Below, piece by piece: positions 43,623 to 46,758 of a stretch of 64,000 nt of DNA. The stretch is from NCBI GenBank assembly GCA_001692895.1, contig KV748291.1:1-64000 (forward strand), read 5' to 3'. How positions within the stretch are numbered: the first letter of the stretch is position 1; every line of letters starts with the position of its first letter. Under the pieces are notes generated by a model, which worked only from the letters and a program-made list of their open reading frames with translations, was not told the origin of the DNA and did not search any database. Both the position numbers and the translations under genes were made by a program. Source of the stretch: Cenococcum geophilum 1.58 (taxonomy: Eukaryota; Ascomycota; Dothideomycetes; Gloniales; Gloniaceae).

Positions 43623-44651
43623 ATGATTTCAACTATTGTTGATCCAGAGCGCGCCGTTGCGACTATTTTCAACTCGGCTATCGCAGCCGTAGCCATCGGC
43701 GCCGCCTGGGAACTTGGCTTGCTCGATGAACTACGAGACCAAAAGATGGTTGATGTGCACGAGTTCGCAACACAACACAATCTGGACAGCAGCTCGATGC
43801 AAGGCCTGGTTACCGCGCTAGCCGTCGTCGACGTGATCGAGCGCGATCAGGACACGGTCGCGGCGGGTAGGCTGCTGGACGAGGCCTACCGGACGAAATC
43901 GCTGTTCCACTGGCTCACCCTCGGGTCGGGCGAGCTCTTCGCGCGCATGCAGTACGTGCTGCGCAACGAGAATCGCACAGGGGCCTTCTACCGCCGCGAT
44001 CCCGTAGCCATCGCATACGCCTGCCGCGACATTAACCGCCAGCACTTCGACCCGGCCTTCTGGGCGGCCATGGACGGGCTTAATTACAAATTCCACTCGG
44101 TCGTCGACCTTGGAAGCGGGAGCGGCGAGCGGCTAATGCAGCTTCTCGACCGGCACCCCGGGACCACCGGCATTGGCATCGATCTCGCCGGCCCTGCGAT
44201 TAACGTCGCCGCGGCCGAGGCGCTGGAACATGGCTTCGGCGATCGGCTATCGTTCACCGAGGGCGACGCGCGTGATATCAGCTACCGCGACGAGTTTGCC
44301 CAAGTCGACCTGTTAACGTGCTTTATGATGGGCCATGACTTCTGGCCTCGGGACAACTGTGTCGCGACGCTGCAGCGGTTGCGCAAGGCCTTTCCCAAGG
44401 TCCGCCGCTTCCTCCTGGGCGACGCGACCCGGATCCTGCTCGACAGCGCTCGCTCTAAGCACGCCGTCACCGGAGATAATGTGCCCGTCTTTACCCTGGG
44501 CTTTGAATTCGGCCACGCCATGATGGGCACCTATCTGCCGACAATTGAGGAATGGGAAGGTGTTTTCGCCGAGGGCAGATGGCGTTGTGTGAAAAGGCAC
44601 CTTATTGAATCGCTGTCGCTATCGGTCATCTTCGAACTAGAACACGCCTAA
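43623..44651 (+). CDS. MppJ-like SAM-dependent C-methyltransferase
   Basis: This intact, intronless 342-residue protein starts at ATG 43,623; the open frame extends upstream only from a GTG. The N-terminal half is a helical dimerisation/winged-helix region ([20 protein letters not shown], then [16 protein letters not shown]). A Rossmann SAM domain follows with motif [13 protein letters not shown] near residues 160-171. [13 protein letters not shown] and [13 protein letters not shown] contain two His residues at about 238 and 298. Bacterial MppJ, the phenylpyruvate C-methyltransferase of mannopeptimycin biosynthesis, is an iron-dependent enzyme with two His ligands, and overall length and motif order match it. 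The likely reaction is methylation of the beta carbon of an aromatic 2-oxo acid. The gene is richer in G+C than its neighbours and lacks introns, which suggests acquisition from bacteria. It faces an aminotransferase gene tail to tail. Another O- or C-methyltransferase activity cannot be excluded. Confidence 0.82.
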
Positions 44652-45527
44652 CTACAGATAAAGTCGTTAGTATACGTTGTAGCTAAGCAAGAAACATGAC
44701 TTCTAGCTGCTATATCTATCCTCGCACACTGTTACCTCTAACAGTCCGCGCTGAGCGCAATGTGCGTAGCCCTCACTCCTATCCTCATGGCCTCTAGTGG
44801 CTGATTGCTTGTCTGTTCATCGATACACCACGGGATGCCGTCTGGGGAATTTATGAACTATTCTCTGGTACCTTCCTGTCTTGCATTAATAATATTGGAC
44901 TGTTGCGCAGGCTAGTTTGACGTTGAAATTTATTCCGCTAGGATATCGTGTTGCCTTATCTTATCTAATTTCTTAAGCGTATCTGTGTTCTACTCAATTA
45001 CCTAGCTCTCCTTATGTACTACATCGATGCTGCTTTTAAGCCCTTAGATGTTATGCCTGTTTAGTAAGATAATATATAAATGATCCAGCTCCAGCGCAGC
45101 TTATACGAGAGACTTCAAGCGCTCTATTCTTGCTAGGATGCTTACAATTTCCTCCTTCTCCAAATTCTATAGCGGAGTTAAGCAATGCTTCGCGATCCTA
45201 CTCTTGCCTATAATCTTCTCTTATAGCTCTCCAAGAGCCTGCTTGTATTAATCTAGAGGGCTATTGCTAGTGTTGAGAGCTTTAACGGTTGTGAACTAAG
45301 GCTCGTTGTAGCTTCCTCCTTTTAACTGGAACTTTAGGCTAATAAGCAGGCTGTATAGATTAGAAGATTTGAGTGAGATACGGCAGTGAAAAAGGTGAAT
45401 TTTGGTTAATAAAGAGCAGTATGCCCGCCCGTGCGCGTAGTGCACGTACCAACGGTCCACCGAGGGTCTGATTTATGAGATAATGTGGAGGGCTCTTCCA
45501 GATCCTTCCTCATATATACGTCTAACG
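44652..45527. other. Intergenic region between convergent genes
   Basis: This 876-base stretch lies between the 3' ends of the methyltransferase and aminotransferase genes. It is moderately AT-rich with some TA-rich words (45,060-45,080), but no gene or repeat is recognised. It presumably holds both terminators. Confidence 0.45.
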
Positions 45528-46758
45528 CTAAGCCACTGCCTGCGGCCTGGTAGGGTGCTCATTCCCGCCGTCGACCTCTTGATCTTCCGCCCGCACCTCA
45601 AAGCGCCACCCAAACTCGTCCTCTACCTTGCCCAGCTGGATCGCCCTCAGCTGCGCCAGTAGCTTGAGGTACACCGGCCCGCCGCTGTGCTGCTCGTCGG
45701 GGAGGTACGCCACCGTCTCGGACTCAGCGTCCACCCGCAGGCGTGGGCCAGCGGGCAGTCGGGCAGTCGTGCGGCGCCGCGTGATGGACCGGATTGGCAC
45801 CAGCGCCACCGCAGTTCCAGCGCCAAGCACCTCACTAAACGCAGGCAGCTCCGTGTACCGGACGGGCCGCTTCTCCACCTTCCACCCGAAGCTGCGGGCG
45901 ATGTGCTGCATGCTGTCGCTAGTGACGCTGTCAATGACGCACGGCGAGTCGGGCACCACCAGCGTCACGTCGTCACCGCCCCCGTGGGAACGCACGCCGA
46001 TAAACGCACATGTACTGAACTCATCCACCTCTTCATGCCGCACACTGTCCAGGTGCAGTGTGACGCCAAACCCTTCCGTCCTTGCCTGGTCGCTCCACCG
46101 CAGCACCGGGGCATAGTTCCCACCCACCTTGGCATGGCCCGTACCCTTGGGCGCTGCACGGTCAAAGTCGTCCACGATCAGCGCTTTGACCGCCTGCATC
46201 CCAAGGTACACGCCTGTCGGAACAACAAAGACGCAGAACGTATACTCGTCCGGTGGGTTAAGTCCGAGCTGCGCACTCGACCCATATAGCTGCGGCCGGA
46301 CGTAGAGTGCCCCGCCAGACTCATACGGAGGGACGTAGCCGGCGTTAAGCGCGACGACAGCGCGACACGCCCGCAGGAACATGTTAACAGGGACGGACGG
46401 CATCGAGAGCACTGCCCCCGAGTGCTGAAAGCGCATGGCATTACGGTCGGGGCGGAAGAGGGCGATGCTACCAGGTTTGCCAGGCATGCGGAAGGCCTTG
46501 AGGCCTTCCAAGGCTTGCTGGCCGTAGTTGAGGGCTGGCGACATACCGTGAATGCGCATGTACGGGTCGGAGACGAACTTGAGGGGCGTCCATTTGCCAG
46601 TGGCCTTGGAGTATATGGATTCGATATGGCCGTTGACTGCAAAGAATGCTAGTAACCATCAATCAATGTTGTGGACGTTGCACACCTTCGTGGACTTTGA
46701 AGTCCTTTATATTGGTCCAGTCAATCGTATTAACCGGAGGGGGAGGAAAGGTCGCCAT
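45528..46758 (-). CDS. Branched-chain-type (class IV) aminotransferase
   Basis: Two exons, 46,758-46,686 and 46,636-45,528, are joined over a 49-base intron (46,685-46,637, GTGTGC...TTTGCAG, branch-like TTACTAGC) and give a 393-residue protein. ATG 46,758 starts MATFPPPPVNTIDWTNI; the splice joins KVHE to VNGHIES. The fold-type IV PLP-enzyme features are clear: ALNYGQQALEGLKAFR, a beta-hairpin ALYVRPQLYGSS, the PLP-lysine region GHAKVGGNYAPVL, and LGAGTAVALVPI near the phosphate-binding site. Such fungal BCAT-like enzymes occur in primary metabolism (leucine, isoleucine, valine) and as dedicated copies in biosynthetic clusters. No mitochondrial presequence is evident. Its position facing the MppJ-like methyltransferase suggests it converts the methylated 2-oxo acid to an amino acid. 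It appears functional. Confidence 0.88.

Follow-up and report, generated by a model that had tools for sequence, protein, structure and literature searches.

Can a fungus carry, in two neighbouring genes, the means to make a beta-methyl aromatic amino acid? The question is raised by a locus of Cenococcum geophilum 1.58, whose genome assembly holds 177.2 Mb in 162 contigs. The window, that is, the whole stretch of DNA analysed here, comprises the first 64,000 bases of one of them (C116, KV748291.1; 211,904 bases). The original prediction for this DNA, made from its letters, had described two intact, tail-to-tail genes at 43623..46758 as the best preserved pair in the window, one encoding a protein like the bacterial methyltransferase MppJ and the other a fold-type IV aminotransferase with its pyridoxal phosphate (PLP) lysine region. 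The coordinates and the uninterrupted frames agree with this description: the genes lie tail to tail with 876 bases between them, and they are the longest stop-to-stop frames not only of the window but of the entire contig (376 and 359 codons; the third has 209). Our findings point toward the methyltransferase being a horizontally acquired MppJ from the Pseudonocardiaceae that acts as a phenylpyruvate beta-C-methyltransferase, a reading of its origin and enzyme type to which we assign a probability of about three in four.

The methyltransferase gene is intronless and encodes 342 residues, from its ATG to its stop (the two ends of the interval in Table 1), without an internal stop. When the protein was compared by phmmer with the Protein Data Bank (PDB), MppJ was matched at E 1.1e-132 and 445 bits, which excludes a chance match, and the next PDB protein was SgvM at E 1.3e-8 and 37 bits. 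Identity to MppJ amounts to 61%, with 74% (74.25%) positives, over 334 columns, and to 63% in the MAFFT alignment. An identity as O-methyltransferase was rejected, as the first PDB protein named as COMT-type, RedM, reaches only 1.2e-6, behind both MppJ and SgvM. The predicted fold agrees with the sequence. The AlphaFold2 model, in which ligand geometry is not visible and whose input alignment joined 36 of the 55 bacterial loci described below to the window protein, has a mean pLDDT of 91.4 and a pTM of 0.87. Rows 1-15 of its Foldseek search are all MppJ, at TMq 0.90-0.94 (4kib_A: TMq 0.92, rmsd 1.3), followed by SgvM (0.64-0.68), MrsA (0.78-0.79) and then O-methyltransferases and others. The O-methyltransferases listed lie at about 0.55-0.63, and an O-methyltransferase fold was likewise rejected.

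Particularly, W97, R125, M235, M236, H238, D239, W241, E295 and H298 are invariant in all 55 rows of the family, which comprise 53 bacterial loci, MppJ and the window protein (L091 and L092, partial matches, were left out of the 55 loci). The translation confirms the FGHAMMG motif, in which H298 lies; H298 and H238 are, by their role in MppJ, the putative iron ligands, and the protein would bind iron. Variants of MppJ in the PDB alter the Asp equivalent to D239, as well as the positions equivalent to R125 and T303. The description of the protein as MppJ-like is therefore upheld by phmmer, kept residues and predicted fold. A grouping with O-methyltransferases, which the original prediction had named as a sign against it, was found neither by sequence nor by fold; the trees reported below hold the window protein and its bacterial relatives, with no O-methyltransferases among their rows.

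As to the origin of the gene, a pattern scan of genome contigs yielded 55 MppJ-type loci, all of them from actinomycetes according to the record titles. The best relative among these, in Kibdelosporangium aridum DSM 43828 (locus L038), is 81% identical in amino acids, and the next is 60%. In the family of K. aridum, 31 of 390 genomes match the methyltransferase at E 1e-60, and two more close relatives were found there, at 75% (G114) and 72% (G084). A tree of 28 rows out of 59, covering the close kin and a spread of others (L112 was excluded for an internal stop and L108 as the same gene as L038), places the window protein as sister to K. aridum (98/90), joined by G114 (100/98) and then by G084 (100/100) in a Pseudonocardiaceae clade. 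In the 55-row tree it is again sister to K. aridum (100/99), and the two are joined with the Streptomyces MppJ rows at 95/95, a grouping left unresolved in the 28-row tree. This nested position in a bacterial clade gives the direction of transfer as from bacteria to fungus, possibly by way of another fungus. The donor would be a Pseudonocardiaceae actinomycete near K. aridum, in which the gene headed a nonribosomal peptide synthetase (NRPS). The methyltransferase is the single match in the 177-Mb fungal genome. A viral or mobile origin was also considered and rejected: a scan of viral contigs with the methyltransferase pattern gave 45 pattern matches and no relative, and of 32 plasmid records that match the protein, 8 cover at least 80% of the query, the best at 53.9%; Streptomyces plasmids carry cousins of the gene, but no near ones. 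As a separate observation, one genome of the K. aridum family holds two adjoining MppJ-like genes (G146:C1:10268043-10270072), which share 59% and 54% identity with the query.

In K. aridum an NRPS frame comes after the methyltransferase; it measures at least 2586 amino acids, being truncated where the locus ends, and has four matched condensation (C) stretches and three matched adenylation (A) stretches. G114 and G084 each carry a same-strand A domain after the methyltransferase, 77% and 72% identical, respectively, to that of K. aridum, and NRPS-like DNA lies close to the MppJ-type gene in 26 of the 55 bacterial loci. The fungal locus differs. The original prediction had proposed looking for an NRPS within 50 kb, and none was found on the 212-kb contig, which ends 43.6 kb upstream of the methyltransferase; none of 31 NRPS queries has a tblastn match on this contig at E 0.01, whereas all 31 match the K. 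aridum locus. Searched against the whole fungal genome, the first A domain of K. aridum hits 59 places, the best-scoring with 39% identity over 561 residues on another contig (C1) and short pieces with up to 49%. The K. aridum NRPS, compared with 30 of the 32 C-domain loci matched in the genome, reaches 33% over 1424 residues in the best-scoring case (L009) and up to 37% in shorter pieces. A close NRPS copy, as expected beside a methyltransferase of 81% identity, was found neither among the 30 C-domain loci nor in the genome-wide A-domain search, and co-transfer of the NRPS was rejected. The methyltransferase is retained in the fungus without the NRPS that accompanies it in bacteria.

MppJ itself, from the mannopeptimycin cluster of Streptomyces hygroscopicus (PDB 4KIB and others), is like the window protein in sequence, predicted fold and the active-site residues examined. 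The window gene differs in lying in a eukaryotic genome with no NRPS found adjoining, in a Thr for Val at residue 303 and in an 8-residue insertion (residues 273-280) that K. aridum also has and MppJ lacks. The original prediction knew of no described fungal example, a statement that does not stand, since two are in print (PMC12113358; PMC3612039). UgsB of Aspergillus candidus is an MppJ homologue of 73.4% similarity to MppJ that methylates phenylpyruvate in vitro (PMC12113358), a similarity about equal to the 74.25% positives of the window protein. UngE' of A. campestris is described as a methyltransferase of the same role in an unguisin cluster (PMC12113358, PMC10896222). Both genes sit in NRPS clusters and, in the available parts of these sources, no aminotransferase partner is described for them, whereas the window gene adjoins a branched-chain aminotransferase (BCAT) with no NRPS found; of the traits of an unguisin-type cluster, the locus has the MppJ homologue but not the adjacent heptamodular NRPS. 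The second case, XP_001942153.1 of Pyrenophora tritici-repentis, is reported as an MppJ homologue gained by bacterial horizontal gene transfer, with S. hygroscopicus MppJ as its top match (PMC3612039). Like the window gene, it would be a bacterial MppJ transferred into a fungus, a likeness drawn by description only.

The second gene of the pair shows an open frame at 45531-46658 on the reverse strand and, with its first exon, extends over 46758-45528 and encodes 393 amino acids. The 49-nt intron was preferred over six other GT..AG pairs because it restores the sequence VNGH, as in the paralogue on contig C5 (judged by eye), and position 46758, the end coordinate of the original prediction, is likely the ATG. 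The protein matches Pfam Aminotran_4 at E 1.8e-21, too strong for a chance match, and carries the motif GTGHAKVGGNYAP, aligned to solved BCATs, whose lysine (K144 of the open reading frame starting at 46559) we take to be the one that binds PLP. The predicted fold-type IV aminotransferase with its PLP lysine region is borne out by these two matches. The protein is like class IV BCATs of the ilvE_II type in Aminotran_4, lysine motif and alignment, but unlike them in its NCBIfam scores: the best families, PRK13357 (265.4 of 307 bits) and ilvE_II (234.4 of 250.05 bits), stay below their curated cut-offs when the frame is scored without exon 1. Two paralogues, that on C42 and that on C5 (its intron read through), fall short of the NCBIfam BCAT cut-offs as well, so that these bacterial models appear strict for the fungal proteins. 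Altogether, the genome holds five BCAT-like loci (six rows): the window gene and those on C17 (65%), C5 (51%), C9 (35%) and C42 (30%). Downstream of NYG, both the C5 and the C17 paralogue contain additional sequence, and C17 has a second such stretch at a later point; these are probably introns, and the window copy is without them. With five such loci, the aminotransferase is a fungal paralogue, and the possibility raised beforehand that it is the only housekeeping BCAT of the genome was rejected.

Enzymes of the MppJ family convert phenylpyruvate and S-adenosylmethionine (SAM) to beta-methylphenylpyruvate. In C. geophilum this step would fall to the nonhaem-iron methyltransferase; the beta-methylphenylpyruvate would then be aminated to beta-methylphenylalanine by the adjoining BCAT, or else by a general aromatic aminotransferase, and the amino acid could be used in trans by an NRPS encoded elsewhere in the genome. 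Substrate, stereochemistry, amination partner and end product are what we infer for this route. The isoleucine precursor, a beta-methyl 2-oxo acid, is a natural substrate of BCATs, and amination by the adjoining BCAT is plausible; that this enzyme is a dedicated partner is a tentative proposal, which we would put slightly below even odds.

The alternative that survives best accepts the methyltransferase as proposed and regards the BCAT as an unrelated neighbour, a secondary branched-chain paralogue, with general aromatic aminotransferases carrying out the amination; the chances of this, too, we place a little under one half. In line with it, the genome has BCAT-like genes in number, and the gene island around the pair also contains pieces of unrelated genes (CHAT, DUF4470 and zinc finger). 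Moreover, in the cluster of A. candidus only the methyltransferase ugsB is needed among the genes other than the NRPS, deletion of the other 15 having left the products unaffected, and the main text of that paper nowhere uses the word aminotransferase (PMC12113358). A general enzyme, TyrB, is named as the aminating enzyme in E. coli. From these gene needs and from TyrB it follows that the pathway could have an aminotransferase of its own but need not. What speaks for a link between the two genes is that no other intact frame is as long on a 212-kb contig that is mostly AT-rich and resembles DNA altered by repeat-induced point mutation (RIP), together with the known acceptance of a beta-methyl substrate by BCATs. 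The most elaborate version of the proposal is a chimeric cassette, in which an actinomycete methyltransferase, severed from its NRPS and set opposite a duplicated fungal BCAT, makes a free beta-methyl aromatic amino acid (or 2-oxo acid) for an unlinked assembly line or for a use other than in nonribosomal peptides. We consider it unlikely. If true, it would be a case of a fungus supplying its own non-proteinogenic amino acid from bacterial and native parts.

Several observations weigh against a beta-methyl amino acid pathway built on an acquired phenylpyruvate methyltransferase. Contig C116 carries not one of the 32 C-domain and 59 A-domain places listed for the genome, both counts being lower bounds. 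BCAT-like genes were found near the bacterial MppJ gene in 0 of 55 neighbourhoods (up to 8 kb on each side; class I aminotransferases were not searched), so that the pairing of methyltransferase and BCAT is without bacterial precedent in the sample; in K. aridum the three Aminotran_4 places are all on contigs other than that of the methyltransferase. The two fungal genes may lie side by side by chance. As for the enzyme, residue 303 is Thr where MppJ has Val, at a position altered in one MppJ variant, although Thr occurs there in 23 of the 55 family rows. At nine positions where at least 85% of the other rows agree, the window protein has a different residue; four of these departures it shares with K. 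aridum, and among the window-only ones is R319, in place of a Gly that all 54 other rows have.

These departures bear on a second alternative, namely that the methyltransferase now acts on a different 2-oxo acid, such as an aliphatic or indolic one, or that the gene is starting to decay. The end branch of the window protein in the 28-row tree, 0.22 against 0.035 for its K. aridum sister, would fit such a change, and the structural relatives SgvM and MrsA were solved, by their entry titles, with ketoleucine and ketoarginine. However, the catalytic-site residues examined are unchanged save for the Val/Thr difference at 303, the open frame is complete, and the comparison with K. aridum (NG86) gives a dN of 0.104, a dS of 0.787 and a ratio of about 0.13, from which the methyltransferase is estimated to be under purifying selection. 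We hold this alternative to be improbable, and a phenylpyruvate beta-C-methyltransferase remains our preferred reading of the gene.

The weakest alternative, an assembly artefact or bacterial contamination, is brought to mind by near-bacterial sequence inside a eukaryotic assembly but is very improbable, since the DNA homology to K. aridum halts at the gene borders (it reaches from 14 bases ahead of the ATG into the last codons), the third-position GC of 0.74 lies near that of the adjoining BCAT (0.76) and away from that of the K. aridum gene (0.90), an intron-bearing gene is only 0.9 kb off, and RIP-like DNA flanks the island on both sides. These last two features are the reason for not taking the contig as a contaminant. 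Beyond the block at about 33-50 kb, the GC content of the contig is 0.26-0.42, TA/AT is mostly 1.4-2.0 and (CA+TG)/(AC+GT) mostly 0.3-0.65, which is the pattern of RIP-mutated repeats; the signal is weaker in a few bins, such as 84-88 kb.

Table 1. Coordinates, in the window, of the methyltransferase and aminotransferase genes, their parts and the surrounding island.
Feature	Position	Strand	Basis or remark
MppJ-type SAM-dependent C-methyltransferase gene, Pseudonocardiaceae origin	43623..44651	+	phmmer, identity, tree, fold model
DNA homology to K. aridum L038 7988-9025, 80.8%	43609..44647	+	single blastn match of window 42001-48000
Codons of H238-D239-F240-W241, putative first iron-ligand His and adjoining Asp	44334..44345	+	H238, D239 kept in 55/55
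Codon of H298, putative second iron-ligand His, in FGHAMMG	44514..44516	+	kept in 55/55
BCAT exon 2, with PLP lysine motif GTGHAKVGGNYAP	45528..46636	-	Aminotran_4; alignment of the motif with solved BCATs
Predicted 49-nt spliceosomal intron, GTGTGC...TTTGCAG	46637..46685	-	one of seven frame-keeping GT..AG pairs
BCAT exon 1, 73 nt, with start codon	46686..46758	-	frame and intron prediction
Gene island, GC up to ~0.54	33000..50000	.	rest of contig rich in AT, its TA/AT and CA+TG ratios RIP-like
C2H2 zinc-finger piece	37094-37372	+	below Pfam cut-offs; inside island
DUF4470 protein in pieces, weak MYND match	39910-40796		inside island
CHAT-domain gene piece	42580-43077	-	inside island

What is new here is a further fungal MppJ, a named donor lineage and a place beside a BCAT without an NRPS found on the contig. 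By titles and the start of abstracts, in a search that most subscription journals lie outside, we found no paper that connects an MppJ of a fungus with a BCAT and none on transfer from Kibdelosporangium to a fungus. The donor lineage of this fungal MppJ can be named as the Pseudonocardiaceae clade around K. aridum, in which the arrangement of methyltransferase and NRPS is still present in three bacterial members, and the locus offers an example of a tailoring gene maintained apart from the assembly line that accompanies it in those bacteria. The BCAT, if its dedicated role is to aminate beta-branched aromatic 2-oxo acids, would be useful in biocatalysis. In this regard, the locus makes beta-methylphenylalanine in this fungus a concrete and cheaply testable prediction.

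Some minor features of the surroundings deserve mention. Within the island, the zinc-finger piece is a possible local regulator, and the CHAT-domain piece lies 0.5 kb upstream of the methyltransferase and points away from it. In the AT-rich part of the window, an open frame with ankyrin-like repeats, recognised by eye, occupies 8170-8655 (+).

Elsewhere in the genome, the best-scoring A-domain match to K. aridum (C1:923486-925174, reverse strand) lies in a frame of 2522 codons, on a contig without any of the 32 C-domain places. On C5, an NRPS frame of 4808 codons (497483-513068) is found about 63 kb from the BCAT paralogue at 576323-577210. Finally, C145:7966-16329 and C154:15319-19707 (loci L009, L012, L024 and L008) could represent a second bacterial acquisition. 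The C-domain family PF00668 scores 305 bits at C154:18415 and 296 bits at C145:12280, the other scores on those contigs being 31-167; the GC content is 0.55 in L008 and 0.59 in L009, compared with a range of 0.46-0.51 for seven other NRPS loci; and L009 aligns over 1429 amino acids with a bacterial NRPS locus at 35% identity (with plasmid records at 37%), most other fungal loci being at 24-30%.

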